64,000 nt of DNA from Rhizophagus irregularis (taxonomy: Eukaryota; Glomeromycota; Glomeromycetes; Glomerales; Glomeraceae). Of this stretch, positions 19,616 through 64,000 are shown piece by piece. A program made the position numbers and the translations under genes. Position 1 is the stretch's first letter; every line of letters starts with the position of its first letter. The stretch lies in assembly GCF_026210795.1 (NCBI RefSeq), contig NC_089448.1:186001-250000 (forward strand). Direction: 5' to 3'. Below the pieces are notes generated by a model. That model had not been told where the DNA came from. It worked only from the letters and a program-made list of their open reading frames with translations, and searched no databases.

Positions 19616-21829
19616 CTAAATAATAAACAAACCATCAAGAATTTCTGATTTATCTTGTTCTGAATGAAGACTTGGATTATTTTGTACTTCATCTGTAAAA
19701 GTAAAATAAATTAGAATAATGACTAATTTATATTATAAATAATTTAATAAATATGGCTTACCATTAGTACCAATATTTGATTGTTGTTGCATGAATTCTC
19801 TCACATAGTCATTTTGAACATCTACTATTATCAATAAATCAAATATATTAATATACTCATCAACAAAAATATTATAAGAAAATTAGAATTGACATATAAA
19901 TAAATATTTTAAGGCTTTACCATTCTCTATTTTTAATTTTTTGGATAATCTGGGTGATTCTTTACTATCATTATCTAAAATTAAGATATACAGTAAATTA
20001 GTATATATTTATTTATTATAAAACACTAATAAGAATAAATTACCATTGGAACTAATTGGCATATATTGATTACTCGAATTACTAAGATTACTAGCTATAA
20101 TGAAATGAATCATTTAATATTTTATTGCATAAAATTCAATATAATTTTAATAAATACTTACAATTACTAGAAATACTAAAATCATATGATCTTCTGATAT
20201 AAAATGCTATTTTTTTTAAAAAAAGAGATTATCACTATTTATTAATTAATAAAGGACTTATACTAAAACATTATTAACTTTATATTACCTTTTTGTTCTT
20301 CTATTATTATTTATAAAAAGAAAATATTATTAATAATACTGAATATTAAAAAAAGATTTAATTAATAATATATATGAAACAATTATACCTTCTGTTGCAT
20401 TTTTTGGTTTAGGTAGGTTGTCAAATTTATAAGTTTTACTTGTAAATGATTTACTATTCATGTTAATTTTTTCTTTATCTACTTTTGCTATTAATTGAGG
20501 TAATTCATTTGGATTATTTTGATAATATGTTTTAATTTCTCTGATTGTTTTCCAAACTGCATTAGTATCAGGTCTTTTTAATGGATTAGCATCCCAACAT
20601 TGTTCCATTAAACTTTTATATTTTGAAGGAATTTCTGATATAATTACTGGTCTTATACCATCAATAATATTAATTGCAAGAATACAATCATGTTCATAAT
20701 TCATAAATGGAGGTTGTCCAAATGAAATTTCCCACATAAGCATTGCAATACTATAAATATCAGATTTAAAAGTATATTCTCTTCCAATAATAATTTCAGG
20801 TGCTATGTAAGGAAGATTCCCATAAATACTAGTAGTTGATGGTTTATCTGCAGGACCACAAAATCCAAGATCACTAATTCGCCAAGAATCATTAGACCGG
20901 GAATATAATATATTTCCAGAATGCAAATCTCTATGAATTGAATCCTCTTTATAAATATAATAAAGTGCTTCAATTATTTCAAAAGTAATTCTAATTCTTT
21001 CTTTCCATGTAAGTTGATTATGATTTTGTTGTAAATATTCTTTTAAATTCATATCAAACTTACTCATTACAAGTAAATAATTTCCATTTGATGGATTTTT
21101 TGTTAAACCAAAACATTGAACAATATCTGGACTTTTGTTGCTTAAAGTTAAATGTGATTTAGCCTAATAAAAGCAATAAATTTTATCAATAATTAAATTT
21201 AAGTTTAAGTTCTTTAAATATTTTTTTAAGTTACAAACCTCTTCAAACCAACTTTGGCTTGCATTTTCAATATTTTCTAATTCTTTAAGTATTACAACAC
21301 GGGTTCCTAATCTTATTAATTGTTGTTCTTTAGAATCCCATTCTGCATATCTTCCATCAATCCAATTTGCTGTATAAATATTAGAGAATCCACCTCTTGT
21401 TAGATATTTAATATTTTGTAAATTATTATATGGGATCCATTCAATTATTGCATCTGGGTTAAATGTCTCCATTTGGCAATTTTTTATTAAATTATCAATA
21501 TCATTATTGCCAGATGTCCAATTTGAAAAGTTTGTTTTTAAATAATTTCGAACACAATATTCACAATATAATGTAGCTAAACATTTTTGGTTACAATTTT
21601 CACAAATTCTTCTTGTCCCTGAATTAAAATAAATTTTATCTCGGTCATAAGCTCTATTATTTAATCTTATTGCTTCAGTTTTTTCTTCTTCTGTAAGAGA
21701 ATCATCATTAAGAATTTTTTGTTCACAAAATTCGTATTGTTTATGAAAGCCAACACAAATACTATAATCAATTGACTTATGCGCTCTCGTAAGTGCGTTA
21801 ATTATTAAATTCATTCGTTTATTAGACAT
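19616..21829 (-). CDS. TKL-like protein kinase with Cys-rich leader
   Basis: Eight exons splice in frame to 555 residues: 21829-21239, 21163-20389, 20300-20289 (a 12-nt micro-exon), 20206-20162, 20094-20044, 19974-19921, 19824-19762 and 19692-19616. After the first, phase-0 intron every junction is phase 1. The leader has CENCNQKC...YCEYC and NFSNWTSGN. The kinase domain follows: LTRGGFSNIYTA (glycine loop), Lys in VVILKELE, SIHRDLHSGNIL (catalytic loop), SDLGF (DLG for DFG), YIAPEI, then the C-lobe with CWDANPLKRPD. The tail is Ser/Asn-rich. I chose the ATG at 21829 because it opens a natural N-terminus; in-frame codons upstream include no ATG. All catalytic residues are present, so an active Ser/Thr or dual kinase is likely. 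This architecture is hugely expanded in Rhizophagus. Confidence 0.85.
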
Positions 21830-25951: not shown

Positions 25952-27448
25952 TCATATTTTAAAATTAATATCTTCTACATACACGTAAGATTCACATTTA
26001 AAACTTTTAATTACTCCATTATTTTTATATTTATTAATCAAATTTTTATAATCTTCTCCTTTATAAATAGAATTGGATGTAAGTATGGAAAGTGCAGGTC
26101 GGTCTCTCCATTTTTCTAAGAATTCTTCCTCCAAGACTTCCAAAGAGACATTAAAATCACTAAAAAATCTGATTTCTCTTAGATTAGTTGGTGCTGATTT
26201 AATTAATATTTTTAATATTTCTTTTCTATTTTCTAAAACTTCTTCTTCAGTTTCTTCAGTTTCATAATAATTTGATGTAATTAATATTAATGACTTCAAA
26301 TTTTGACAAACTTGTAATAATTTTTCAAATTCAATGAAATGATTTTTTGATGGTAAAAATGCAAGCGATAGATATTCAATCGAAGGACAATTTTCATAAA
26401 TTTTACGTATAAAAATGAGAGATTCATCACTAAAATTATCTTGATAATATATAAAATCATGAGGTTTTAATGAAACTTCTTTAAGATGTCCTCCACTATT
26501 TTCAATTATGATTGAAGTTTCACCTATTGTAATATAATCTATATTAAGGATTTCAAGATTATTATAGACTAACGTCTTGAATGTACTTTCATAAATAAAA
26601 CTAAGATCATTGATTTTTAAAGTTTTTATATTATGAAGTTTTAGAAGTAATCTTTGCATTATTGTATAATCAAAACTATCAGTATATAGAAAAGATAGTT
26701 TAAGATGATTAAGAAAGCCTGCCTTTTTTTCTAATTCAAGAAAGATTTCTTTATAAGGATCATCTATAAAATAATCAACATCAAAATCATCAGTCCATTC
26801 AAAATATTTTAAATTCTTTTGAACTTCAATTAATTTAGCAATTCCAGAGTTGGATTTTGGTACTATATTAACAGCAATAATGAGTCTCTGTATAAATTGA
26901 CAAATACGAGCTAATCCATAAAAGTATGAAGGATCAATAGATGTATCACATTTTAGTTCACATAATGATTCAAGACGATTTTTAGCTTCCGGAATATAAA
27001 ATATTTGGTGTTTAATTAAATTCATATCTAAACACTTCAACTCTTGAAATTTCTTCATAAAGAGACAATAAAATTCTTGTTGTAAAAGAAATTGATTATA
27101 AGCTAAAGAGGATCCAATAGAAGTTATAGTATTCAAAGTATTTACATTAATACTTCTACAGAATGATAAATAATCGAACAAAAGTGGTTGAAATGAAACT
27201 GATGATAATTGTATTCCTTGTCTTGTTAGGAATTCTTTAATATCATCAGATAAATATGAAGCAATGATTATAAATAAATAATTTTTATTTCTATACTTTA
27301 TATCATAGCACCAGGGATTTCTCCATAAAATTGGAATCACCGTTTCACACCAAATTCTATTGACCATTAAACAAGAAAAGAGAGATTTTGAATCGACTTG
27401 TAATTCTTCAAATATTAAGAAAAGAATATCTTTATTGAGTTTTGCCAT
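25952..27448 (-). CDS. F-box/LRR-like protein 1
   Basis: Intronless frame of 498 codons. The first ATG is at 27448 (MAKLNKDILFLIFEELQVDS); the frame extends four codons upstream only to a TTG, so I place the start at the ATG. Residues 3-45 are an F-box (LNKDILFLIFEEL...CLMVNRIWCETVIPILW). The rest has irregular leucine-rich strands such as LKTLKIND, LEILNIDYI, IEYLSLAF and NLKSLILI, the usual substrate-binding part of SCF adaptors. It is about 85-90% identical by eye to copies 2 and 3. A Glu codon is added in LEVLEEEFLEKW compared with the others. Probable role: SCF ubiquitin ligase substrate adaptor; partner unknown. Confidence 0.9.
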   Translation of the reverse strand: MAKLNKDILFLIFEELQVDSKSLFSCLMVNRIWCETVIPILWRNPWCYDIKYRNKNYLFIIIASYLSDDIKEFLTRQGIQLSSVSFQPLLFDYLSFCRSINVNTLNTITSIGSSLAYNQFLLQQEFYCLFMKKFQELKCLDMNLIKHQIFYIPEAKNRLESLCELKCDTSIDPSYFYGLARICQFIQRLIIAVNIVPKSNSGIAKLIEVQKNLKYFEWTDDFDVDYFIDDPYKEIFLELEKKAGFLNHLKLSFLYTDSFDYTIMQRLLLKLHNIKTLKINDLSFIYESTFKTLVYNNLEILNIDYITIGETSIIIENSGGHLKEVSLKPHDFIYYQDNFSDESLIFIRKIYENCPSIEYLSLAFLPSKNHFIEFEKLLQVCQNLKSLILITSNYYETEETEEEVLENRKEILKILIKSAPTNLREIRFFSDFNVSLEVLEEEFLEKWRDRPALSILTSNSIYKGEDYKNLINKYKNNGVIKSFKCESYVYVEDINFKI

Positions 27449-27623
27449 CCTTTTATCCAAAAATAGTTTGGAATAAATCTTTTATAATTGGGGTTTTTTT
27501 GAGATAACTTTAAATATAATTTTATCAAAATGTTAAAATTATTTTTTTTTAAAAAAAAAAAAAATAAGCAAAATAAGTAAACAAATAAGTAAAATAAAAG
27601 AAATGAAAACTATTTAATAATAA

Positions 27624-29420: not shown

Positions 29421-30911
29421 TCATATTTTAAAGTTCATATCTTCTACATACACGCCAGATTCACATTTAAAACTTTTAATTACTCCATTATTTTTATATT
29501 TATTAATCAAATTTTTATAATCTTCTCCTTCATAAATAGGATTGGATGTAAGTATAGAAAGTGCCGGTCGGTCACTCCATTTTTCTAAGAATTCTTCCAA
29601 GGCTTCCAAAGAGACATTAAAATCATTAAAAAATCTAATTTCTCTTAGATTAGTTGGTGCTGATCTAATTAATATTTTTAATATTTCTTTTCTATTTTCT
29701 AAAACTTCTTCTTCAGTTTCGTATATATAACAATTTGATGTAATTAATAATAATGACTTCAAATTTTGGCAAACTTGTAATAATTTTTCAAATTCAATGA
29801 AATGATTTCTTGATGGAAAAAATGCAAGCGATAGATATTCAATCGAAGGACAATTTTCATAAATTTTACGTATAAAAATGAGAGATTCATTACTAAAATA
29901 TTCTTGATAATATATAAATTCATGAGGTTTTAATGAAACTTCTTTAAGATGTCCTCCACTATTTTCAATTATAATTGAAGTTTCACCTATTGAAATATAA
30001 TCTATATTAAGGATTTCAAGGTCATTATAGACTAACGTCTTGAATGTACTTGCATTAATAAAACTAAGCTCATTAATTTTTAAAGTTTTTATATTATGAA
30101 GTTTTAGAAGTAATCTTCGCATTATTATATAATTAAAACTTTCAATATATAGGAAAGATAGTTTAAGATGATTGAGAAAGCCTGCCTTTTTTTCTAATTC
30201 AAGAAAGGTTTCCTCATAAGGATCATCTGTAAGATTATCAACATCAAAATCATCAGTCCATTCAAAATATTTTAAATTCTTTTGAACTTCAATTAATTTA
30301 GTAATTCCAGAGTTGGACTTTGATACTAGTACATTAACAATGATGAGTCTCTGTATATATTGACAAATACGAGCTAATCCATAAAAATATGAAGGATCAA
30401 TGGATGTATCACATTTTAGTTCACATAATGATTCAAGACGATTTTTAGCTTCCGGAATATAAAATATTTGGTGTTCAATTAGTTTCATATCTAAATACTT
30501 CAACTCTTGAAATTTCTTCATAAAGAGACAATAAAATTCTTGTTGTAAAAGAAATTGATTATAAGCTAAAGAGGATCCAATAGAAGTTATAGTATTCAAA
30601 GTATTTACATTAATACTTCTACAGAATGATAAATAATCGAACAAAAGTGGTTGAAATAAAACTGGTTGTAATTGTATTCCTTGTCTTGTTAGGAATTCTT
30701 TAATATCATCAGATAAATATGAAGCAATGATTATAAATAAATAATTTTTATTACTATAATTTATATCATAGCACCAAGGATTTCTCCATAAAATTGGAAT
30801 CACCGTTTCACACCAAATTCTATTGACCATTAAACAAGAAAAGAGAGATTTTGAATCGACTTCTAATTCTTCAAATATTAAGAAAAGAATATCTTTATTG
30901 AGTTTTGCCAT
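29421..30911 (-). CDS. F-box/LRR-like protein 2
   Basis: Uninterrupted 496-codon frame from ATG 30911 (MAKLNKDILFLIFEELEVDS). The F-box is at residues 3-45, followed by the same LRR-like strands as copy 1. The TTG four codons upstream is in frame but not used here as a start. Against copy 1 most changes are single residues; clusters of change lie at IVNVLVSKSNSG and SNCYIYETEEEV, which are also the length-variable places in other copies. Its neighbours are a shared 3' intergenic block on the left and the conserved upstream block on the right. Likely an SCF substrate adaptor. Confidence 0.9.
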   Translation of the reverse strand: MAKLNKDILFLIFEELEVDSKSLFSCLMVNRIWCETVIPILWRNPWCYDINYSNKNYLFIIIASYLSDDIKEFLTRQGIQLQPVLFQPLLFDYLSFCRSINVNTLNTITSIGSSLAYNQFLLQQEFYCLFMKKFQELKYLDMKLIEHQIFYIPEAKNRLESLCELKCDTSIDPSYFYGLARICQYIQRLIIVNVLVSKSNSGITKLIEVQKNLKYFEWTDDFDVDNLTDDPYEETFLELEKKAGFLNHLKLSFLYIESFNYIIMRRLLLKLHNIKTLKINELSFINASTFKTLVYNDLEILNIDYISIGETSIIIENSGGHLKEVSLKPHEFIYYQEYFSNESLIFIRKIYENCPSIEYLSLAFFPSRNHFIEFEKLLQVCQNLKSLLLITSNCYIYETEEEVLENRKEILKILIRSAPTNLREIRFFNDFNVSLEALEEFLEKWSDRPALSILTSNPIYEGEDYKNLINKYKNNGVIKSFKCESGVYVEDMNFKI

Positions 30912-31083
30912 CCTTTTATCCAAAAATAGTTTGGAATAAATCTTTTATAATTGTGTTTTTTTTTGAGATAACTTTAAATATAATTTTATCAAAATGTTAA
31001 AATTATTTTTTTTAAAAAAAAAAAAATAAGCAAAATAAGTAAACAAATAAGTGAAATACAAGAAATGAAAACTATTAATAATA

Positions 31084-35444: not shown

Positions 35445-36932
35445 TTATATTTTAAAGTTCATATCTTCTACATACACGTCAGATTCACATTTAAAACTTT
35501 TAATTACTCCATTATTTTTATATTTATTAATCAAATTTTTATAATCTTCTCCTTCATAATTGTAATTAGATGTAAGTATAGAAAGTGCAGGTCGGTCTCT
35601 CCATTTTTCTAAGAATTCTTCCAAGACTTCCAAAGAGACATTAAAATCATTAAAAAATCTAATTTCTCTTAGATTAGTTGGTGCTGATTTAATTAATATT
35701 TTTAATATTTCTTTTCTATTTTCTAAAATTTCTTCTTTAGTTTCGTATATATAACAATTTGATGTAATTAATAATAATGACTTCAGATTTTGGCAAACTT
35801 GTAATAATTTTTCAAATTCAATGAAATGATTTCTTGATGGTAAAAATGCAAGTGATAGATATTCAATCGAAGGACAATTTTCATAAATTTTACGCATAAA
35901 AATGAGAGATTCATCACTAAAATATTCTTGATAATATATAAATTCATGAGGTTTTAATGAAACTTCTTTAAGATGTCCTCCACTATTTTCAATTATAATT
36001 GAAGTTTCACCTATTGAAATATAATCTATATTAAGGATTTCAAGGTCATTATAGACTAACGTCTTCGATGTACTTTCATTAATAAAACTAAGTTCATTAA
36101 TTTTTAAAGTTTTTATATTATGAAGTTTTGGAAGTAATCTTCGCATTATTGTATAATCAAAACTATCCATATATAGGAAAGATAGTTTAAGATGATTAAG
36201 AAAGCCTGCCTTTTTTTCTAATTCAAGAAAGGTTTCCTTATAAGGATCATCTGTAAGATAATCAACATCAAAATCATCGGTCCATTCAAAATATTTTAAA
36301 TTCTTTTGAACTTCAATTAATTTAGCAATTCCAGAGTTGGACTTTGATACTACATTAACAATGATGAGTCTCTGTATATATTGACAAATACGAGCCAATC
36401 CATAAAAATATGAAGGATCAATAGATGTATCACATTTTAGTTCACATAATGATTCAAGACGATTTTTAGCTTCTGGAATATAAAATATTTGGTGTTCAAT
36501 TAGTTTCATATCTAAATACTTCAACTCTTGAAATTTTTTCATAAAGAGACAATAAAATTCTTGTTGTAAAAGAAATTGATTATAAGCTAAAGAGGATCCA
36601 ATAGAAGTTATAGTATTCAAAGTTTTTACATTAATACTTCTACAGAATGATAAATAATCGAACAAAAGTGGTTGAAATGAAACTGATGGTAATTGTATTC
36701 CTTGTCTTGTCAGGAATTCTTTAGTATCATCAGATAAATATGAAGCAATGATCATAAATAAATAATTTTTATTACTATAATTTATATCATAGCACCAAGG
36801 ATTTCTCCATAAAATTGGAATTACCGTTTCACACCAAATTTTATTGACCATTAGACAAAAAAAGAGAGATTTTGAATCGACTTGTAATTCTTCGAATATT
36901 AAGAAAAGAATATCTTTATTGAGTTTTGCCAT
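35445..36932 (-). CDS. F-box/LRR-like protein 3
   Basis: 495-codon frame from ATG 36932 (MAKLNKDILFLIFEELQVDS). F-box at residues 3-45, with CLMVNKIWCETVIPILW. LRR-like remainder almost identical to copies 1 and 2, with the length-variable sites at IVNVVSKSNSG and SNYNYEGEDYKN. Its 3' flank was split by the 1070-bp CATCAGG element, 50 bp downstream of the stop; the coding part is untouched. Probable SCF substrate adaptor. Confidence 0.9.
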   Translation of the reverse strand: MAKLNKDILFLIFEELQVDSKSLFFCLMVNKIWCETVIPILWRNPWCYDINYSNKNYLFMIIASYLSDDTKEFLTRQGIQLPSVSFQPLLFDYLSFCRSINVKTLNTITSIGSSLAYNQFLLQQEFYCLFMKKFQELKYLDMKLIEHQIFYIPEAKNRLESLCELKCDTSIDPSYFYGLARICQYIQRLIIVNVVSKSNSGIAKLIEVQKNLKYFEWTDDFDVDYLTDDPYKETFLELEKKAGFLNHLKLSFLYMDSFDYTIMRRLLPKLHNIKTLKINELSFINESTSKTLVYNDLEILNIDYISIGETSIIIENSGGHLKEVSLKPHEFIYYQEYFSDESLIFMRKIYENCPSIEYLSLAFLPSRNHFIEFEKLLQVCQNLKSLLLITSNCYIYETKEEILENRKEILKILIKSAPTNLREIRFFNDFNVSLEVLEEFLEKWRDRPALSILTSNYNYEGEDYKNLINKYKNNGVIKSFKCESDVYVEDMNFKI

Positions 36933-37102
36933 CCTTTTATCCAAAAAATAGTTTGGAATAAATCTTTTATAATTGGAATTTTTTTGAGATAACTTTAAAT
37001 ATAATTTTACAAAATGTTAAATTATTTTTTTTTTAAAAAAAAATAAGTAAAATAGTAAACAAATAAGTGAAATAAAAGAAATGAAAACTACAGTATTAAT
37101 AA

Positions 37103-46903: not shown

Positions 46904-48391
46904 TCATATCCTATAGTTCATATCTTCTACATTCACGTAAGATTCATATCTAAAACTTCTAATTACTCCATTATCTTTATATTTATTAATCAAATTTTTA
47001 TAATCTTCTCCTTCATAAATAGAATTAGATGTAAGTATAGAAAGTGCAGGACGACCTTTCCATTTTTCAAAGAATTCTCCCAAGACTTCCAAAGAAACAT
47101 TAAATTCATCAAAAAATCTAATTTCTCTTAGATTAGTTGGTGCTGATTTAATCAATATTTTTAATATTTCTTCTCTATTTTCTAAAATTTTTTCGTCAGT
47201 TCTTTGCATATAAAAATTTGATGTAATTAATAATAATGATTTCAAATTTTGACAAACTTGTAATAATTTTTCAAATTCGATGAAATGATTTTTTGATGGT
47301 AAAAATGCAAGTGATAGATATTCAATCAAAGGACACTTTTCATAAATTCTACGGATAAAATTGAGAGAATTTTCACTAAAATTATCTTCATAATATACAG
47401 AATCATAAGGTTTTAACGAAATCTTCTTAAGATGACCTCCACTATTTTCAATTATAATTGAAGCTTCATTTATTGTAATATAATCTATATTAAGGATTTC
47501 AAGATCATTATAGACTAATGTCTTCAATAGACTTTCATCAATAAAATCAAATTCATTAATTTTTAAAGTTTTTATTTTATGAAGTTTTGGAAGTAATCCT
47601 TGCATTATTGTAAAATCAAAACCTTCAAAACATAGGAAAAATAGTTCTAGATGATTAAGAAATCCTGCCTTTTTCTCTAATTCAAGAAAGATTTCTTTAT
47701 AAGGAGAATAATTAAAAAAATCATCATAAAAATTATCAGTCCACTCAAAATATTTTAAATTCTTTTGAACTTCAATTAATTTAGCAATTCCAGAGTTAGT
47801 CTTTGATATTACATTAACAATGATGAGTCTTTGTATATTTTGACAAATACTCACTAATCCATAAAAGTATGAAGAATCAATAGATGTATCACACTTTAGT
47901 TCGCATAGTGATTCAAGACGAGTTTTAGCTTCTGGAAAATATAATATTTGGTGCTTAATTGATCTCATGTCAAAATACTTCAACTCTGGAAATTTCTTCA
48001 TAAAGAGACAATAAAATTCTTGTTGTAAAAGAAATTGATTATAAGCTAAGGAGGATCCAATAGAAATTACAATATTCAAAGTATTTACGTTAATACTTCT
48101 ACAGAATGATAAATAATCAAATAAAAGTGGTTGAAATAAAACTGGTTGTAATTGTATTCCTTGTCTTGTTAGGAATTCTTTAATATCATCAGATAAATAT
48201 GAAGCAATTATCATAAATAAATAATTTTTATTAATATAATTTATCCCATAGCACCAAGGATCCCTCCATAAAATTGGAATCACCGTTTCACACCAAATTC
48301 TATTGACCATTAGACTTGAAAAGAGAGATTTTGAATCGTCCTGTAATTCTTCAAATATTAAGAAAAGAATATCTTTATTGAGCTTTGACAT
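46904..48391 (-). CDS. F-box/LRR-like protein 5
   Basis: 495-codon frame from ATG 48391 (MSKLNKDILFLIFEELQDDS). F-box at residues 3-45 (SLMVNRIWCETVIPILWRDP). LRR-like strands include LEILNIDYITI, IEYLSLAFLPS and NLKSLLLITSN. Closest to copy 4 (shared QDDSKSLFSSLMVN and GGHLKKISLKPYDS), more distant from copies 1-3. Length-variable sites are the same as in the siblings. The upstream block is present but more diverged. Likely SCF adaptor. Confidence 0.9.
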   Translation of the reverse strand: MSKLNKDILFLIFEELQDDSKSLFSSLMVNRIWCETVIPILWRDPWCYGINYINKNYLFMIIASYLSDDIKEFLTRQGIQLQPVLFQPLLFDYLSFCRSINVNTLNIVISIGSSLAYNQFLLQQEFYCLFMKKFPELKYFDMRSIKHQILYFPEAKTRLESLCELKCDTSIDSSYFYGLVSICQNIQRLIIVNVISKTNSGIAKLIEVQKNLKYFEWTDNFYDDFFNYSPYKEIFLELEKKAGFLNHLELFFLCFEGFDFTIMQGLLPKLHKIKTLKINEFDFIDESLLKTLVYNDLEILNIDYITINEASIIIENSGGHLKKISLKPYDSVYYEDNFSENSLNFIRRIYEKCPLIEYLSLAFLPSKNHFIEFEKLLQVCQNLKSLLLITSNFYMQRTDEKILENREEILKILIKSAPTNLREIRFFDEFNVSLEVLGEFFEKWKGRPALSILTSNSIYEGEDYKNLINKYKDNGVIRSFRYESYVNVEDMNYRI

Positions 48392-48554
48392 TCTTTTATC
48401 CAAAAATAATGAAAAATGGTTTAGAATAAATCTTTTATAATTGAAATTATTTTAAGGTAAATTTAAATAAAATTTTATAAAATGTTAAAATTATTTTTTT
48501 TAAAAAAAAAAAATAATAATAAGAGAACAAATAAGTAAAATAAAAGAAATAAAT

Positions 48555-51936: not shown

Positions 51937-53406
51937 TCATATAATAAAGTTCATATTTTCTATATTCATTATAGAAGGTTCATATCTAAAGGTTTTAATT
52001 ACTCCATTATTTTTATATTTATTAATCAGATTTTTATAATTATAATTTTCATAAATAAGATTAGATGTAAGTATAGAAAGTGCAGGCCGGCCTCTCCATT
52101 TTTCTAAGAAATTTTCCAAAACATCCAAGGAGAATTTAAAATCATTAAAAAATCTAAGTTCTCTTAAATTATTCGGTGCTGATCTAATTAATACTTTTAA
52201 TAATTCTTCTCCATTTTTTGAAATTATTTCTTCAGTTCCATGTCTATAAATATTTGGTGAAATTAATAATAATGACTTTAAATTTTGACAAACTTTTAAT
52301 AATTTTTCAAATTCTACGAAATGATCATTTGAAGGTGAAAATGCAAGTGATAGATATTCAATCGAAGGACAATTTTCATAAATTTTACGAATGAAAATGA
52401 GTGAATCTTCATCAAAATCACCTCCACATTTTAAAAAATCACAAGGTTTTAATGAAACCCTTTTAAGATGACCTCCACTATTATCAATTATGATAGAAGC
52501 TTCATTTATTGTAATATAATCTATATTAAGAATTTCAAGATCATTATAAGCTAACCTTTTCAATAGATTTTCATTAATAAAACTAAATTCATTAATTATT
52601 AAAGATTTAATTTTATGAAGTTTTGGTAATAACCTTTGAATTATTGTATAATCAAAATGGTTGAAATATTGAAAAAATAATTTTAAATGATTGAGATGAT
52701 CTGCCTTTTTTTCTAATTCAAGAAAAATTTCTTTACAAGGATTTACTCTAAAATGATCTTCAGTCCATTCAAAATATTTTAAATTCTTCTGAACTTCAAT
52801 TAATTTAGCAATTCCATAATTGGACTCTGAACTTAAATTAACAATTTCGATTTTCTGTATATATTGACAAATATTTGCTAATTCATAAAAGTATGATGAA
52901 TTTATTGATGTGTCACATTTTAATTCACAGAGTGATTCAAAACAAAGTCTGAATTCTGGAAGATGAAATATTGTATGTTTAACTGATCTCAAATCCAAAT
53001 ATCTAAATCTCAAACATTTCCTCATAAAAAGATTGTAAAATTCTTGTTGTAAAAGAAATTGATTATATTCTGAAGATGATCCAATAGAAATCATAGACTT
53101 CATAATATTTACATTAATACTTCTACAGAAAGATAAATAATCAAACAAAAGTGATTGACATGAAACTGATGGTAATTGTTTCATTAGGGATTCTTTTATA
53201 TCATCGGTTAAATAGGAAGAAATAATCGCAAATAAATAATTTTTTTTACTATAATCAATATTATAACGCCAAGGATTCCTCCATAAAATTGGAATAACAG
53301 TTTCACACCAAAGTTTATTTACAATTAAACATGAAAAAAGGGATTTCGAATCATCTTGTAATTCTTCAAATATTAAGAAAAGAATATCTTTATTGAGTTT
53401 AGACAT
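51937..53406 (-). CDS. F-box/LRR-like protein 6 (divergent)
   Basis: 489-codon frame from ATG 53406 (MSKLNKDILFLIFEELQDDS). F-box conserved at residues 3-45 (CLIVNKLWCETVIPILWRNP). The body has the same order of LRR-like strands but many substitutions compared with copies 1-5, with deletions around KESLMKQLPSVS and in the WTEDHFRVNPCKEIF segment. The C-terminus reads NIENMNFII. The upstream block is poorly conserved and contains a transposon 290 bp upstream. Likely a functional SCF adaptor of older duplication age. Confidence 0.9.
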   Translation of the reverse strand: MSKLNKDILFLIFEELQDDSKSLFSCLIVNKLWCETVIPILWRNPWRYNIDYSKKNYLFAIISSYLTDDIKESLMKQLPSVSCQSLLFDYLSFCRSINVNIMKSMISIGSSSEYNQFLLQQEFYNLFMRKCLRFRYLDLRSVKHTIFHLPEFRLCFESLCELKCDTSINSSYFYELANICQYIQKIEIVNLSSESNYGIAKLIEVQKNLKYFEWTEDHFRVNPCKEIFLELEKKADHLNHLKLFFQYFNHFDYTIIQRLLPKLHKIKSLIINEFSFINENLLKRLAYNDLEILNIDYITINEASIIIDNSGGHLKRVSLKPCDFLKCGGDFDEDSLIFIRKIYENCPSIEYLSLAFSPSNDHFVEFEKLLKVCQNLKSLLLISPNIYRHGTEEIISKNGEELLKVLIRSAPNNLRELRFFNDFKFSLDVLENFLEKWRGRPALSILTSNLIYENYNYKNLINKYKNNGVIKTFRYEPSIMNIENMNFII

Positions 53407-53697
53407 TATTAAATAATAAATAAATTACGAAATAATGTTTAAAGATCTTTTATAATTATGATATTTTTTTAAAAAAATAATTTTTTCACAATACCGGGTA
53501 TTTAAATATTTAATTGTGGAGGATTTTCCGGAATTTCGGAATTAAAAATTGACCAAATTAATTTAAGGCGGAGTATTAATTACGTGATAATCGTAATATA
53601 TGTGTCATTGTTTAAGGCTTGGTGTTTTTTTTCGGTTAGTGATTATCTATTTGTGTTTTTGTGATCCTTATTTATTAATTCTGTACGACCATAATGA

Positions 53698-54285: not shown

Positions 54286-55541
54286 TGATCAAATTAAGTT
54301 TCGCAGCAACAAAGTATAGTTACGCCAAAACTTTGTGCATCTTAGTTTTTATGGCCATAAAAAGAATTTTGGTTTTGTTAATTATTATTATTAGTATTAA
54401 TAGAATTAGTTCCCGTATTAGTCTCAATCACTGAGCGATATCTTCATAAATATTAATTTATAGTTTCGTAATTTTAAAATTGATAGGTCAAGATTACAGT
54501 AGGTTCATAATTTTTATTACTAGGTTGTACTACAGCCATCAGCTATTTTAAAAAAAAATATCACGTAATCTTTTATTAATAATAGAATTATTTTTAACTA
54601 TGATTAAGCAAAGGAGATAATAAAATTTACTAGCGAATAAATCACTAACGTTGACCAGAATTAACACGCTCTTTTTAACTAACATAATTTTTTCGTACAA
54701 TGACTTTATTTAGTGATATATATTAATAACAAAAAAGTAATTAAACATCAAAAAGGAAATTTTTGAACAGATAACCTGGGATGGAAAACTACATTGGAAA
54801 ATTGTATTATGGAAATACAAATTGGATTTATGGATGCTGACATTTTTTTGGCGAGCCATTTTTTTTTATGTAAACATTTTGGTTAAACAAAAAAATGGAA
54901 GGTAGTAATTCCTATTCTTTTATTTTTTGAGTCCCCAAAGAATCAATAAAAAGTTTTGGACTTTTGGTCAAACATTTTGAAAAGTACATCGGGAAATAAA
55001 CCTAATGATTATAAATATTGTGAATATTTATTCAATCAATTAATTGCAGCTACTGAAAATACAATTTAGATATAAACTAATAGAAATTTTAAATGGGCCA
55101 AAAGTGTTGAAAAAATTATGGAAATTAAGTTATATCAACGTTTACAAAAATCGGAAAGGTAATACGAGATATAACTATTAACTAATTAATAAAATAAGGA
55201 TTATTCTGAAATTTAAAAAATTCAATACATTTTTATTTGAGAAAATTCTATGAAGGAATGAGACATATTGACACACTCAAGAAACTTTTCAAGATTTTTT
55301 ATAATTTTTTTCGGTACATTATCACGTGATATAGCACGTGTAACACAGTGCTTTTTTTCCAGGGTAGTTGTACTAGTTGTACTCCTTGTAATAAATTAGC
55401 CACACGATTGGATAATTACTGTCATATGATCAAGTTCATATTATCATGAATTTTCCTACAATTAAATAATTTCAATATTGCACAAAAAAATACCAAATTG
55501 GAATATTTTTCAAGTATTTTATTTTTATAAAAAGACCAATC
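54286..55541. other. Spacer upstream of the plus-strand F-box copy
   Basis: No clear gene. 54985-55165 has short plus-strand coding-like phrases (NDYKYCEYLFNQLIAATENT, then WAKSVEKIMEIKLYQRLQ) broken by stops and followed by a GTAATA donor-like site; possibly a decayed exon, not identified. Confidence 0.35.
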
Positions 55542-56996
55542 AATAAAGTTATTTTTTACTTAATATTTGAAGAATTACAAGATCCCTCGCTCGATTCTTT
55601 CGTAAGTAAACTTTGGTGTGAAACTGTAATTCCAATTCTATGGAAGAACCCATGGCGTTACAATATTAATTATAAAAATAAAAGTTATTTATTTGCAATT
55701 ATTATTTTCTATTTATCTAATGATATTAAAGAATTTTTAATAAGTCAAAGAATTCAATTATCTACAATTTCATTCAAATCACTTTTATTTGATTATTTAT
55801 CATTTTGTAAAAGTATTAAAATAAATATTATAAATTTTATAATTTCTAATGGATCACCTTTAACTTATAATAAATTTCTTTTACAACAAGAATTTTATAA
55901 TCTTTTTATGAATAAATGTTCAGAATTAAAATATTTGGATATGAAATCAATTGAACATCAAATATTTTATTTTCCAAAAGCTAATAGTACATACTTTGAA
56001 TCATTAATTGAATTAGAATGTGATACATCTATTGATCCTTCATACTTTTATGGATTAGCACGTTATTGTCAATATATACAAAGAATTATAATTATTAATA
56101 TAAAATCAAAATCAAATTATGGAATTGCTAAATTAATTGAAATTCAAAAGAATTTAAAATATTTTGAATGGATTGATAGATTTGATGATGATTATTTTAA
56201 TCATTATACAGAATGTCCTTATACAGAAATCTTTCTTGAATTAGAAAAAAAAGCGGATACTCTTAATCATTTTAAATTATTTTTTTGGGATGATGATTCT
56301 ACAATACACACATTTCCAAGAAAGTTACTTCCAAAACTTTATAAATTAAAAACCTTAGTAATTAATGAATTTAGTTTTGTTAATGAAGATTTATTGAAAG
56401 TATTAATTTATAATGATCCTGAAATTCTTAATATAAATTATATTACATTGGAAGAAGCTTCTAAAATAATTGAAAATAGTGGAGGACATCTCAAACAAAT
56501 TTTATTAAAACCTGTTGATTATTATGAAGATTATTTTGATTTTGATGAAAAGTCTATCAATTTTATTCGTAAAGTTTATAAATATAGTCCTTCAGTTGAA
56601 TATCTATCACTTAAATTTCTACCATATAATGATCATTTAATTGAATTTGAAAGATTATTAAACATTTGTAAAAATTTGAAATCATTATTATTGGTTATAA
56701 AAAATAGTAAAAGTAGTAGTTATGGAGAAGATTTATTAAAAGTATTGATTAAAGCAGCACCAATTAATTTAAGAGAAATTAGATTTTTTAATGATTTAAA
56801 ATTTTCTTTGGAAGCCTTGGAAGAATTCTTAGAAAAATGGAGAGGTCGACCTGCAATTTCTATACTTACAACTGATTATATTTATGAAAATGAAAATTAT
56901 AAAATATTGATTGATAAATATAAAAATGATGGAGTAATTAAAGATTTTAGAGTTGAAACTATAATGAATGTAGAAAATATGGATTTTAAGATTTGA
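55542..56996 (+). pseudogene. F-box/LRR-like copy 7, no start codon, inverted
   Basis: The frame is open from well upstream of 55542 to the stop at 56996 and matches the family from the F-box on (NKVIFYLIFEELQD, then VSKLWCETVIPILWKNPW). The expected initiator Met is absent, and about four residues are missing inside the F-box (EELQDPSLDSFVSKLW). The next ATG, at 55908, would delete the F-box. The LRR-like part is intact (NIDYI-like LNINYITLEE, VEYLSLKFLPY, NLKSLLLV). It is the only family member on the plus strand and the most divergent. Either a pseudogene or a gene starting in an unseen upstream exon. Confidence 0.75.
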
Positions 56997-57916: not shown

Positions 57917-58237
57917 AGGAAACGGGAACCGTTGTAAGTCCGGAGTGAGGTATAATAAATAAAGATGTACTAATTAGCAGCATAACGCCTTGGAATTCCT
58001 GGACAGAGAAACTCACGTGATTGAAAATTTACACGTTATTTCCATAGTGCGTAGACATATACTTTACAGAAACTTCAAGATCGTAGCGATGGCTTAATGC
58101 ACAGTAACTACATATATGTAATTTCTTTACGATTACATAATGTGGTCACTATGTATTTATAACGCAGTTACTGCGCATTAAGCCATCGCTACTATCTTGA
58201 AGTTTCTGTAAAGTATAGTCCTTCGCTTCGCTCCGGA
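57917..58237. mobile_element. Dispersed repeat with GTCCGGAG ends, filled copy
   Basis: Counterpart of 2749-2929, from 'aggaaacgggaaccgttgta' to 'ccttcgcttcgctccggac'. It is interrupted by a 152-bp MITE at 58062-58213. The 10-bp stretch present at 2882-2891 of the other copy is missing here. Confidence 0.8.
58062..58213. mobile_element. TA-duplicating MITE with 48-bp inverted ends
   Basis: The arms are 48 bp with two mismatches and begin CTTTACAGAAACTTCAAGAT; the interior is 56 bp. Flanks read gaca-tata at the left and tata-gtcc at the right, while the empty copy at 2900-2912 reads gaca-tatata-gtcc, so exactly TA was duplicated. This fits a Tc1/mariner-type (IS630) MITE. The near-identical arms suggest a recent insertion. 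Confidence 0.9.
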
Positions 58238-59190: not shown

Positions 59191-60048
59191 TTACTTTGTA
59201 AAATCAATAATTTCCACTGAATCGTTGTTAATATTATCATACTTTGGAAGATCCTTTGTAAATGGATTAAGTAATCGAGAAGTATAACAAGCATTTGGAT
59301 GAATTGATTGATTACTTCCAATGTATAAAAATCTATATTTCCTATTTTTTTTTATTACTTCGATTTGCTTATTAATTTCCTCTTTGATTTCAATTGCTTT
59401 TGGTCTATTATTTGCATTTGAATTCCAACATTTTTTCATCAATTCAATGTACCATTTTGGTGCTTCCTGCCCATTAATTTCAGGCCTAATTCCATTACAT
59501 ATCTTTAATGCTAAAATATCATCATGCGCACAATCGGCAAAAGGTTGTTTTCTAGTTGCTACAAAATACATAATCATACCAAAACTATATATATCTGCTG
59601 CTTGCGTATAAGGTTTTCCTCTCAATACTTCAGGAGCTACATAAGGCATAACTCCATAAACTTTTGTTTCTTCTGTATTACTTATATTACCTACTTCTCT
59701 ACTTAATCCCATATCTGAAATACATATTTTATTAACGTTAGCAATACGAGAACCGTTAACGCTAATAAAATCAATTAGAGAAATTTCAAATGTAGGTAAT
59801 ATTAATATATTTCCTGTATGTAAATCACGATGGACCATTTGATTGTCATGAATACTTTTAAGACAGCCAATAACTTTATCTAAGATACATAATTTTTCAA
59901 TCCAATACCAAGGTTTTTTGATATATTTATAATTAACGAAATTTTTACTTGCAAGTTCAAGAACTATGATATAATCTTTCGTATATGGATTTTGGGATAT
60001 TCCATATATCTTAAGAATATTATCATTACTTATAGAGTAATTTTTAAC
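59191..60048 (-). CDS. Final exon: kinase C-lobe
   Basis: 285 residues. It starts VKNYSISNDNILKIYGISQN, then hinge IIVLELA, HRDLHTGN catalytic loop, an insert of about 25 residues, DMG in place of DFG, APE, and a short tail ending EIIDFTK. The catalytic Asp, Asn and activation-loop APE are present. Confidence 0.85.
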   Translation of the reverse strand, partial: VKNYSISNDNILKIYGISQNPYTKDYIIVLELASKNFVNYKYIKKPWYWIEKLCILDKVIGCLKSIHDNQMVHRDLHTGNILILPTFEISLIDFISVNGSRIANVNKICISDMGLSREVGNISNTEETKVYGVMPYVAPEVLRGKPYTQAADIYSFGMIMYFVATRKQPFADCAHDDILALKICNGIRPEINGQEAPKWYIELMKKCWNSNANNRPKAIEIKEEINKQIEVIKKNRKYRFLYIGSNQSIHPNACYTSRLLNPFTKDLPKYDNINNDSVEIIDFTK

Positions 60049-63000
60049 CTATCAAAATAATTAAATATAAGACATTAGTTATATTAAAAATTAATTTAAT
60101 TAATTTCAAAGAGAAATTTTTACCTCATTTAAAAACCCATCTGAAATATCTTGTGAATTATTTAAACATTTTAAAGCAACACTGATACCATGGACCCTTT
60201 CCAACCCTTCGTAACTTGGACTATATCGTAATTGACCATTCTCCCATATTGCTGAATACACTGTAGAAAAACCACCTTTTCCTATTTTCATAATATGATT
60301 AAATTGATCATATGGTATCCATTCAACAATTATATCATTCCATTTATTAATTTTTAACTGCATTTCTTGAATTAGTTCATCAATTTTTTTATTTCCACTG
60401 GTCCAATTTGCAAAATCGTTTTTTAAATCTTTTATTTGACATTGTTTACACCATTTATGTTCAATAACTGTATATTGATTGCCACATTTTTTACAATAAC
60501 AATCTTCAAGAATTATAACATAATCTTTTGTATTTGGATCTTGAGAAATTCCGTATGTTTTAGGATTTAATTGTAAGTTATTTGCATTAATAAAATATGT
60601 TTTAACCTAATAAAAATATATAAAGTGTTATTAAAATTAAAGTGCTTAAATTAAATTACAAAGAATTGAAATTCTTACTTCATTTAGAAATTCATTGTTG
60701 ACATTTTGTGTATTACTTATATATTTTAAAGTAGCTTTTTTATTAGGCACTCTTTTCCATTCTCCATATTTTAATGGACCATCCATCCATATTGTTGAAT
60801 ATAAAATAGTAAAATCATTATTGCTTATTTTCTCAATATCATTAAACTGATTGTATGGTATCCATTCAACTATTGTATCATTCTGTTTACTAATTTTTAA
60901 TTGCATTTTTTGAATTAGTTCATCAATTTTTTTATTTCCACTAGTCCAATTAACAAAATTATTTTTTAGACTATTTATTTGACATGATTTACACCATTTT
61001 CCCCATATACTTGTATATATTTCACTGCACGTTTCACAATGTTTTCCATTTTCAATAACCATAATATAATCTTTTGTATCTGGATTTTGAGACATTCCAT
61101 ATATTTTAATGATATTATTACATTCAATAAAATATGATTTAATCTGTTAAAATATAAAGAAGTTCAGTTATTTATAGTAAAAAGAGCTTAAGTTTGAAAG
61201 GAATTAAAAATTCACACCTCATTTAAACATTCATTATTATTTTGTAAATTATCAAAATATTTTAAAGTAACTTTTTTATCAGGCATTCTATTTTGTTTCA
61301 TTTTATTACAATTATATTCAGATGAATCATCTATCCACATTGCTGAATATAATGCAGAAGAATTGCCCATTTTTTTAATATCATTAAACTTATTATATGG
61401 TATCCATTCAACTATATCATCATATTTAGTATTAATCTTTAATTGCATATCTTGGATCAATTCATCAATTTGTTTATTCCCACTAGTCCAATTTGCAAAA
61501 TTTTGCCTTAAATTACTTATCTGACATAATTTACACCATTCGTTGCTAGTATTAGTATATATTTTAACACATTTATCACAAAGGATTCCATCTTGAAAAA
61601 CCAAAATATAATTTTTTGTATCTGGATTTTGAGATATTCCATACATTTTAGAAACATTAGTTTCCTAAAATATATAAAGAATTATTATATTAAAAATATT
61701 TGAAATACAAAGAAATTAGAAATTATATACCTCATTTAAAAATTCATTGGTAATGTTTTGTGAATTACATAAATATTTTAAAGCAACTTTTTCATTGGGC
61801 ATTCTTTTCCACTTTACATTATTATATTTTAATGGGCCATTTACCCATATTGCTGAATATAGTATAGCAAAATCACTTTCACCTATTCTTTTGATATTAT
61901 CAAATTGGTTATATGGTATCCATTCAACTATTATATCATTATTACTTTTAAGTTCTAATTGAATTTCTTGAATGAATCTATCAATTATTTTACTTCCACT
62001 AGTCCAATTTTTAAAATTCATTATTAAATTATTTATTTGACATGATTCACACCATTTGATATATATTGATGTATATATTTCACCACATGTTTCACAATGA
62101 TTTTCGTTTTCAAGAACTAAAACATAATTTTTTGTATTTGGATTTTGTGATATTCCATATATTTTAGGAGGATTATAAATATAACTATCCTCATCTATTA
62201 CAATATCATATGGTTTAATTTGCTAAAATATAAAAGACTTTTACTATATGTGTAAAGTATTAAAATTGAATCATAAATAAATTTGAAATTTCATACCTCA
62301 TTTAAACATTCACTGGTAATATCTTGTGAATTATGTAAGTATTTTAAAGTAACTCCTTTGTTCTGAATTCTTTTCCATTTATAATAGTCATAATCTAACA
62401 AACCATTCATCCAATTTGCTGAATATAATGTAAAAAAATCACCTTGGATTATTTTTTCTATATTATTAAACTGATTATATGGTATCCATTCAACTACATT
62501 ATTATTATGCTCTTTAATTCTTAATTGCATATCTTGGATAACTTCATCAATTATTTCATTTCCACTAGTCCAATTTACAAAATTTTGCTTTAAATTATTT
62601 ATTTGACATGGATTGCACCATTTATAACTTCTATCTTTATACAACATTCCACAGTTTTCACAACACCAATCTTGAAGTACCATAATATAATCTTTTGAGT
62701 CTGGGTTTTGAGAAATTCCATATACTTTAATAATATTATTACCATAATTTTCATGATTTTCAATATTAGATAGTTCTATATGTTTATTAAATAATTTACT
62801 CGCACTAATAACTTTATTACGTATACGTTTTTCATTAATATATGTTTCTATCTGTAAAATATAAGAAAATCATTAATATTAGTAAGTAAATAAATTGATA
62901 AAGAAACCAGAAATCATACCTCATTTAAAAATTTATCAGTATTATACTGTAAAGTATTTAAGCTTATTAAAGTAACTTTTTCATTAGGCTTCCTTTCCCA

Positions 63001-63937
63001 TTTCATTTTATCATAATTATAATATAATGGACCATTTATAAATATTACTGAATACAATTTAGCATCTTCATATAACACCTCCATCTCGATATTATTAAAC
63101 TGATTAAATGGTATCCATTCGATTATTGTATCATTTAATTTATCAATCTTTAATTGCATTTGTTGTATAAATTCGTCAATTTTTTCACTTTCACTGGTCC
63201 AGCTTGTAAAATTTCGTTTTAAATCATTTATTAGGCATTGTTTGCACCATTTATACCTTATACTACTAAATATATTGTTACAGATTTCACAATAACCATT
63301 TTGAAGTACCATAATATAATCCCTTGTAGTCGGATTTTGGGATATTCCATATATTTTAATAATATCATCATATTCAACAAAATAGGATTTAATCTATTAT
63401 AATATATAAAAATATTATTAAAAGTGCGTAAAATAAATTACGAAAGATTAAAATTTATACCTCATTTAGAAATTTATTGGTCATATCATTATTTTGTTGA
63501 TTACTCAAAAATTTTAAGGCAATTTCTTTATTAGGCATTCTTTCTTGTTCCATTTTATCATAATTATATTCTAATAAACCATCTGTCCATATTGCTGAAT
63601 ATAATGGAGTGGAATTATCTTTATTAAGTTTTTTGATATCATTAAACTGATTAAATGGTATCCATTCAACTATTACATCATCATGTTTATTAATTTTTAA
63701 TTGCATTTCTTGAATTAATTCATTAATTTTTTCATTTCCACTAGTCCAATTTGCAAAATTTTGTTTTAAATTATTAATTTGACATGGGTTACACCATTTA
63801 TATCTTACATATGTATAAATTTTACCACAGTATTCACAATAACAATCTTGAAGTATGAGAATATAATTTTTTGTATCTGGGTTTTGAGATATTCCATATA
63901 ATTTAATAATATAATCTTCAATAAACTTTGGTTTATC
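59191..63937 (-). CDS. Poly-N-lobe kinase: seven Cys4/N-lobe modules plus one C-lobe (5' end outside window)
   Basis: Eight minus-strand exons, every one a multiple of three and every junction phase 0: 63937-63461, 63393-62920, 62851-62297, 62222-61731, 61664-61218, 61143-60679, 60606-60124 and 60048-59191, giving 1416 residues in the window. Introns are 67-74 nt, GT-AG, after the repeated phrase LNE. Each of the first seven exons encodes KIYGISQNP.TKDYI, a C..C...WC..C knob, NWTSGN, a helix, EWIPYNQFN and partial kinase strands. The last module has IGKGGFSTVYSAIW and VALK; the final exon has MVHRDLHTGNIL, SDMGLS, YVAPEV and CWNSNANNRP. So one complete TKL-like kinase follows six degenerate N-lobes. 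The preceding exon must lie beyond the right edge. The alternative, several separate genes, is unlikely because inner modules lack starts, stops and C-lobes. Confidence 0.8.
60124..60606 (-). CDS. Module 7: Cys4 knob plus intact kinase N-lobe
   Basis: 161 residues. Cysteines CKKC and WCKQC; glycine loop IGKGGFSTVYSA complete; Lys in VALKCL. It is the only module in the window with a complete GxGGF loop and directly precedes the C-lobe exon. Confidence 0.85.
60679..61143 (-). CDS. Module 6: Cys4 knob plus degenerate N-lobe
   Basis: 155 residues. CETC and WCKSC kept. The glycine loop position reads ISNNDFTILYSTIW with no glycine; Lys kept in ATLKYI. Confidence 0.8.
61218..61664 (-). CDS. Module 5: Cys4 knob plus degenerate N-lobe
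   Basis: 149 residues. CDKC and WCKLC kept. Loop position MGNSSALYSAMW is shortened; Lys kept in VTLKYF. The linker between KIYGISQNP and the preceding exon is the shortest of all modules. Confidence 0.8.
61731..62222 (-). CDS. Module 4: Cys4 knob plus degenerate N-lobe
   Basis: 164 residues. CETC and WCESC kept. Loop position IGESDFAILYSAIW retains one glycine; Lys kept in VALKYL, making it the least decayed of the inner modules. Confidence 0.8.
62297..62851 (-). CDS. Module 3: Cys4 knob plus degenerate N-lobe with longer lead
   Basis: 185 residues, about 25 more than its siblings, from an extra segment (RIRNKVISASKLFNKHIELS) before VYGISQNP. CENC and WCNPC kept. Loop position IIQGDFFTLYSANW; Lys kept in VTLKYL. 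Confidence 0.8.
62920..63393 (-). CDS. Module 2: Cys4 knob plus degenerate N-lobe, Lys lost
   Basis: 158 residues. CEIC and WCKQC kept. Loop position EVLYEDAKLYSVIF, and the VAxK Lys is replaced (VTLISL), so nucleotide binding is not expected. WTSG reads WTSE. Confidence 0.8.
63461..63937 (-). CDS. Module 1 in the window: Cys4 knob plus degenerate N-lobe
   Basis: 159 residues from acceptor CAG at 63938-63940. CEYC and WCNPC kept. Loop position LNKDNSTPLYSAIW; Lys kept in IALKFL. Upstream intron sequence runs to the window edge. Confidence 0.8.
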
Positions 63938-64000
63938 CTGATAAAATATATAAAAAATTAATAAAGTACTTAAAATGAATAATAAGTAGCAATTAAAACT

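Follow-up and report, generated by a model that had tools for sequence, protein, structure and literature searches.

A Rhizophagus irregularis kinase gene with a tandem array of degenerate kinase N-lobes ahead of a single C-terminal kinase

How one gene comes to carry many copies of one half of a protein kinase is the question raised by a locus at the end of a 64,000-nucleotide stretch of Rhizophagus irregularis DNA (RefSeq assembly GCF_026210795.1, contig NC_089448.1, here C20, positions 186001–250000; this whole stretch is referred to below as the window). The gene lies on the minus strand and encodes a series of modules, each with a four-cysteine (Cys4) knob, WTSG and EWIPY motifs and a kinase N-lobe, followed by one kinase C-lobe. 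The reading that we favor, with modest confidence, is that eight units with dead N-lobes precede one tyrosine kinase-like (TKL-type) kinase, and that the inner units form a multivalent array which feeds or gates that kinase.

The gene model consists of ten exons joined by nine GT-AG introns of 66–86 nt, with all junctions in phase 0 and no internal stop, and predicts a product of 1,701 codons plus stop containing nine modules and a single kinase C-lobe (Table 1). A start codon is found at the 5' end of the model and the one C-lobe at its 3' end. Seven modules and the C-lobe fall inside the window, while the gene extends 948 bases beyond it, to C20:250948; this further stretch contains two extra modules, the first of which is in an exon starting MSSQDDITCRKC. 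A preliminary description of the window had counted seven module exons of 149–185 codons in phase 0 at both ends, and these frames and lengths were recovered as claimed (161, 155, 149, 164, 185, 158 and 159 codons from the C-lobe side outward, separated by GT...AG introns of 66–75 nt), although the whole gene has nine. It had also called each N-lobe partial, which holds within each exon but not after splicing. The intron sits between alphaC (FLNE) and the strand that, from general knowledge of the kinase fold, we take to be beta4, and KIYGISQNPDTKDYIMVL (presumably beta4-beta5) is found at the start of exons 2–9 and of the C-lobe exon. Because the following exon opens with beta4-beta5 of the preceding module, each inner N-lobe is complete once spliced, the exons being offset by half an N-lobe. 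Each inner exon carries, in order, beta4-beta5 of the previous N-lobe, a Cys4 zinc-ribbon-like knob, helices, and beta1 to alphaC of the next N-lobe, and in the spliced protein the hinge of each inner N-lobe continues directly into the next Cys4 knob with no C-lobe. By frame, splice signals and start codon position the array has all the sequence signs of one gene, and would be read as one transcript. A separate gene for each module was considered unlikely, since in exons 2–9 an AG precedes the opening beta4-beta5, and three of the eight lack any Met upstream of the knob. An assembly error, which the preliminary description had named as one of the findings that would overturn it, was ruled out: the six other window modules are 47–56% identical to the last one, and a further 29 loci in which a last module was identified, spread over 13 other contigs, have the same layout.

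The 1,701-residue protein gave one Pfam kinase domain (PF07714, residues 1361–1640, E 4.1e-40), contributed by exon 9 and exon 10. The N-lobe of the last module keeps GKGGF, VALK and FLNE (the glycine loop, the VAxK lysine and the alphaC glutamate), and exon 10 keeps HRDLHTGN, SDMGL (the DFG-type Asp, with Met replacing Phe) and APEV. To judge from these motifs, the two exons form a single TKL-type kinase that retains its catalytic residues. A second whole kinase domain was not found in the protein, which contained only one C-lobe, with one PF07714 and one PF00069 stretch; no C-lobe was present between the modules of the array gene, and none was noticed in the module frames read at other loci. 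The knob contains the two CxxC knuckles of a Cys4 zinc ribbon. Zn_ribbon_NOB1 of Pfam matched the whole protein in three stretches (E 1.1e-12) and fell under the family cut-off when exons were scored singly. Among solved structures, five matches were obtained, at chance level (E 0.25–0.96), four of which were ribosomal L37 zinc ribbons. From its sequence the knob is predicted to bind zinc and to adopt a ribbon fold.

Within the window, all four cysteines are invariant across the seven modules and IGKGGF is present only in the exon adjoining the C-lobe, the six inner modules having lost the loop, just as had been described; the single module said to lack the VAxK lysine (exon 4, VTLISL) is joined by a second, exon 2, beyond the window. 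The same rule was then examined at 31 loci in total (the array gene, L002–L004 and L006–L032), which together contain 182 modules and which were picked via matches to the modules of the array gene, not as a random sample. GxGGF was present in 26 of the 30 modules adjacent to a C-lobe and in none of the 152 others, 150 of which had a readable loop. The four last modules without it had DKGGF (twice), GKGCF and GEGRF, and the nearest to exceptions among non-last modules were module 4 of L009 (GKGGI) and module 2 of L021 (SKGGF). In these counts first modules were treated as non-last, as were the five L029 modules although the fetched stretch stops before any C-lobe; the last module of L032 was recognized because a C-lobe exon begins beyond it before the fetched stretch breaks off, and L005, with no C-lobe in its fetched stretch, was excluded. 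Modules 9 and 10 of L003 represent a single module split over two frames, as do modules 4 and 5 of L019, and the first of each pair has no loop stretch.

The other ATP-site residues follow the loop to differing degrees. The Ala of VALK was found in 30/30 last modules and 32/147 others, the VAxK Lys in 30/30 and 127/147, and the alphaC Glu in 29/30 and 94/145, where 46 of the others had Lys. This recurrent Glu-to-Lys change need not mean selection, because an exon-final GAG to AAG change retains a good splice donor. All four cysteines, by comparison, were kept in 28/29 last modules and 137/140 others. Modules are not independent, so that a Fisher test on the loop counts overstates their significance. 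The loop rule, which holds at the array gene and at 29 further loci where a last module was recognized, is not due to chance. When 155 alignment columns were compared, the six largest drops from last to other modules were at G299, A365, G300, V305, F301 and G292; five of these are loop glycines, the loop Phe and the VALK Ala, and the sixth is a neighbor of the loop. Sixty-three columns were at least 85% identical in last modules and 51 of them stayed at 75% or more in the others. Eight of the 12 falling below 75% belong to the ATP site or adjoin it (I291, G292, K298, G299, G300, F301, A365, E395), the other four being M250, K254, I381 and F386. Spacing in non-last modules was also regular, with 8–9 residues from beta5 to the first Cys in 111/136, 12 from the fourth Cys to WTSG in 132/144 and 28 from WTSG to EWIP in 126/145, whereas the length of the alphaC-beta4 linker varied widely. 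The loop rule and column conservation together bear out the earlier proposal that the ATP site decays while the Cys knobs stay.

The layout is a genome-wide trait of the family and not a peculiarity of one gene. Module DNA gave at least 223 matches in its own genome, and the last module protein at least 150, which was all that were scored among 4,865 candidates. A pattern in which beta4-beta5 is joined to EWIP within one exon gave 340 matches and none in a reversed control; as this pattern recovers 84 of the 143 modules of this type already identified (an earlier, similar pattern recovered 56 of 89), we roughly estimate about 580 such modules in the genome. The 100 listed matches of these 340 lay on eight contigs in 51 clusters, 23 of which had two or more, and at least two of the 100 did not resemble modules by eye. 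The loci read contained two to nine whole modules, and the eight that were expected to be single-module genes (L025–L032) all had two or more. No relatives elsewhere were confirmed in prokaryotic genome contigs or viral contigs, which given that scope is weak evidence. Among the module matches listed, many of the best fell in the first 1.2 Mb of contig C14 (about 254–1201 kb), so arrays are clustered there.

Constraint was estimated as the ratio of nonsynonymous to synonymous substitution rates (dN/dS) between matching modules of related arrays in three paralogue groups. For non-last modules it was 0.42 in group A (95% interval 0.35–0.50, 39 pairs), 0.68 in group B (0.49–1.00, 7 pairs) and 0.49 in group C (0.39–0.60, 34 pairs), and 0.47, 0.55 and 0.42, respectively, when only their N-lobe part was used. 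The corresponding values were 0.40, 0.59 and 0.57 for last modules and 0.47, 0.88 and 0.58 for C-lobes. For the inner modules these values show purifying selection in groups A and C and weak constraint in B; the selection on modules that had been suggested earlier is found in two of the three groups. With these values, and with 161 of the 182 modules open end to end, a pseudogene array was considered unlikely.

A kinase with the presumed ancestral layout is present in the window itself. A single-module kinase at 20330–21829 on the minus strand, with a putative start codon, has the Cys4 knob, WTSG, EWIPY and TRGGF, followed by a phase 0 intron at the same alphaC/beta4 point (GAG/GTTTGT ... TTAG/GCT) and then one C-lobe exon. 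The ancestor would have been such a two-exon kinase, and one tandem duplication running from the exon 1 knob to the exon 2 hinge would have created a chimeric exon in phase 0 at both ends; unequal exchange among exon-intron units would then alter module number. Simple shuffling of an exon encoding a ready-made domain was rejected, as an inner exon closes one N-lobe and opens another. At L006, successive introns of 68–72 nt are near identical, which indicates that each exon was duplicated along with its intron. On contig C14, L004 and L005 share 3,155 bp at 98.5% identity; when L005 was examined by eye, its first exon turned module-3-like, another started like module 8 and ended like module 1, and the last was like module 2. 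Unequal exchange inside arrays, with break points within exons, would give such chimeras, and the introns and this recent recombinant suggest that module number changes in this manner. The growth by exon duplication that had been deduced from uniform phase holds in so far as exon plus intron were copied at L006 and on C14, but plain duplication is not sufficient, as fusion of hinge to knob would have had to come first. Two further observations were made at these loci. At L006 2273–3991 about 1.7 kb with a cut module inside separates module exons where other introns are about 70 nt, and looks like an insertion. L004 and L005 (C14:708500–726500) are seemingly halves of one longer recombinant array of about 14 modules; they lie 3.8 kb apart, and this interval has no open frame of more than 108 codons.

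Splice sites were also scored blind at 106 junctions of 16 loci. Phase 0 ranked first at 87 and phase 1 at 9, with no candidate at 10, and some of the 87 first choices lie away from the alphaC/beta4 point; a phase 0 GT-AG intron was available at that point in 90 of the 106. In the array gene itself blind scoring chose phase 1 first between exons 6 and 7, and between exons 7 and 8 it picked a donor within the exon, the real donor there being GTGTGA.

To follow the loss of the ATP site, quick trees (LG+G4) were built without ATP-site columns. The 176-module tree required 17 changes between last and other labels, compared with a mean of 28 and a minimum of 23 in shuffled labels, so there is some clustering of last modules, as near-copies would produce. 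In a 94-module subset the 15 changes equalled the shuffled mean (15.0). A single clade of the 16 last modules was rejected by the approximately unbiased (AU) test, both when all retained columns were used (p 0.016) and when the N-lobe half (p 0.016) or the knob half (p 0.015) was taken separately. Support was weak at many branches, with 40 of 91 open and only three label changes forced by starred branches. Last modules do not appear to form one clade, pointing to repeated loss of the ATP site or to gene conversion, which inside arrays could blur the history. The clearest case is module 4 of L009, which shows early loss at catalytic sites and is sister to the last module of L009 on a starred branch: the two modules agree at 56 of 61 non-catalytic N-lobe sites but differ at 3 of 7 catalytic ones (Fisher p 0.03).

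Anatomy, phase, loop rule, constraint and signs of exchange, all of them read from sequence, are consistent with a course in which surplus N-lobes lose the ATP site while knob and fold are retained. The inner units would form a rigid multivalent protein-binding array, a sensor or scaffold, recruiting or gating the C-terminal kinase. Several results weigh against this reading. AlphaFold models were poor (mean predicted local distance difference test scores of 50.3 and 35.6), and the folds of the knob and inner N-lobe consequently rest on sequence. Constraint in group B is weak, with an upper limit of 1.00 and C-lobes at 0.88, and constraint on inner modules may in general reflect foldability alone. 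A parsimony site count found excess replacement at only 2 columns (p<0.02, uncorrected), which is no good sign of diversifying selection and lends no support to the recognition of varying targets. Twenty-one of the 182 modules are broken, cut by the fetched stretch or without a scored column, and the blind scoring did not place phase 0 first at every junction. A bolder version of the array, which we consider unlikely, is a new class of repeat protein, a solenoid of kinase N-lobes in which knob and helices cap the C-lobe face of the preceding N-lobe. Module number would change quickly by unequal exchange, and the whole would act inside the cell as a variable receptor that recognizes self/non-self or partners, with the C-terminal kinase as output, at perhaps a hundred or more loci by extrapolation.

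In a neutral account, exchange between similar introns adds modules that are tolerated if they fold without interference, and ATP sites that nothing holds simply decay. The near-identical introns of L006 would make exchange easy, the C14 recombinant is recent, and foldability alone could yield dN/dS below 1. We nevertheless regard it as rather improbable, since GxGGF is absent from all 150 readable non-last modules while neighboring N-lobe columns stay conserved, constraint in groups A and C is about equal to that on last modules and C-lobes, and most modules are open. A further account is a rule of one active site, under which extra ATP-binding N-lobes would compete for the C-lobe or mispair with it and selection disarms them; the inner N-lobes would then regulate the C-lobe internally and not bind other proteins. 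Loop loss that is complete in the sample and looks repeated in the AU tests, and the early loss at catalytic sites in L009 module 4, both agree with this. Such a rule leaves array growth and knob retention unexplained, and gene conversion could mimic repeated loss where well-supported branches force so few changes; we hold it to be quite doubtful. Phase 0 exons would also allow any module to be skipped, and alternative splicing could then make proteins of varying length. All junctions of the array gene model are 0-0, and phase 0 scored best at most junctions elsewhere, but a Dscam-like choice of catalytic N-lobe is unlikely when the other modules have no loop, and we consider this account very unlikely.

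Table 1. Exons of the array gene, listed from the C-lobe end (window positions unless marked C20)
Feature	Position	Strand	Content	Pfam match
Exon 10	59191..60048	-	beta4-beta5, hinge, kinase C-lobe (HRDLHTGN, DMG, APE), stop	PF00069, E 3.5e-27, exon alone
Exon 9	60124..60606	-	ninth and last module; sole GKGGF of nine	with exon 10, PF07714 positions 5-257
Exon 8	60679..61143	-	inner module; Gly loop gone (ISNNDF), Lys retained (ATLK)	
Exon 7	61218..61664	-	inner module; Gly loop gone (MG--NS), Lys retained (VTLK)	
Exon 6	61731..62222	-	inner module; Gly loop gone (IGESDF), VALK retained	
Exon 5	62297..62851	-	inner module; long alphaC-beta4 linker, Gly loop gone (IIQGDF), Lys retained (VTLK)	
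Exon 4	62920..63393	-	inner module; Gly loop (EVLYED) and VAxK Lys (VTLISL) both gone	
Exon 3	63461..63937	-	inner module; Gly loop gone (LNKDNS), IALK	
Exon 2	C20:250008-250463	-	module beyond window; VAxK Lys gone (INLINF)	
Exon 1	C20:250550-250948	-	first module, start codon; beyond window	

Other features were observed in the window. About 1 kb downstream of the stop codon of the array gene, at 58049–58226, is a 61-nt inverted repeat with 90% complementarity and 56 nt between its arms, which may be a small element resembling a miniature inverted-repeat transposable element (MITE). Six open frames of about 500 codons (25952–27481, 29421–30944, 35445–37016, 46904–48451, 51937–53424 on the minus strand and 55470–56996 on the plus strand) gave no Pfam match above cut-off; the fifth had a sub-threshold F-box-like match, and the six may be paralogues of an F-box/leucine-rich repeat (LRR) type. 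An open frame at 3929–4843 on the minus strand encodes a bromodomain (PF00439, E 4.8e-19).

Expansion of kinases in Rhizophagus irregularis and Glomeromycotina has been published (PMC4219462, PMC10234402, PMC8647823, PMC4771724), and the array gene is like these expanded TKL kinases in that its last module and C-lobe form a PF07714 kinase, while the single-module kinase of the window shares knob, WTSG, EWIPY and intron with the array modules. In the portions of those four accounts available to us, the TKL expansion concerns the number of kinase genes and not arrays of N-lobes within a gene. For the high-copy gene families of R. irregularis, among them the kinases, a role in perceiving the environment and interacting with it has been proposed (PMC8647823), which fits an array acting as a sensor and is no test of it. 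No description of N-lobe arrays was found in the literature searched, a scope outside which most subscription papers fall. Part of the arbuscular mycorrhizal kinase expansion may be repeat-protein scaffolds and not extra enzymes.

Dead kinase parts fused in tandem to an active kinase are also known from the tandem kinase-pseudokinase proteins of plants (wheat WTK/TKP, e.g. Yr15). A pseudokinase normally has the entire kinase fold and a broken site, and what is dead in the plant proteins is an entire kinase domain, with N- plus C-lobe. In the array, by contrast, only an N-lobe is dead, each one accompanied by a Cys4 knob, and the loci read have from two to nine whole modules. A degenerate kinase unit likewise shares the chain with an active one in JAK2 and Gcn2. 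Theirs is one whole pseudokinase domain, whereas the fungal gene has an array of half domains. The kinase fold has here seemingly been split at the hinge and one half multiplied within genes, with the ATP site kept only before the C-lobe, apparently more than once, and this provides a natural experiment on the uses of a kinase N-lobe apart from catalysis. The array resembles the pseudokinase-kinase fusions and differs from them in having half domains in arrays.

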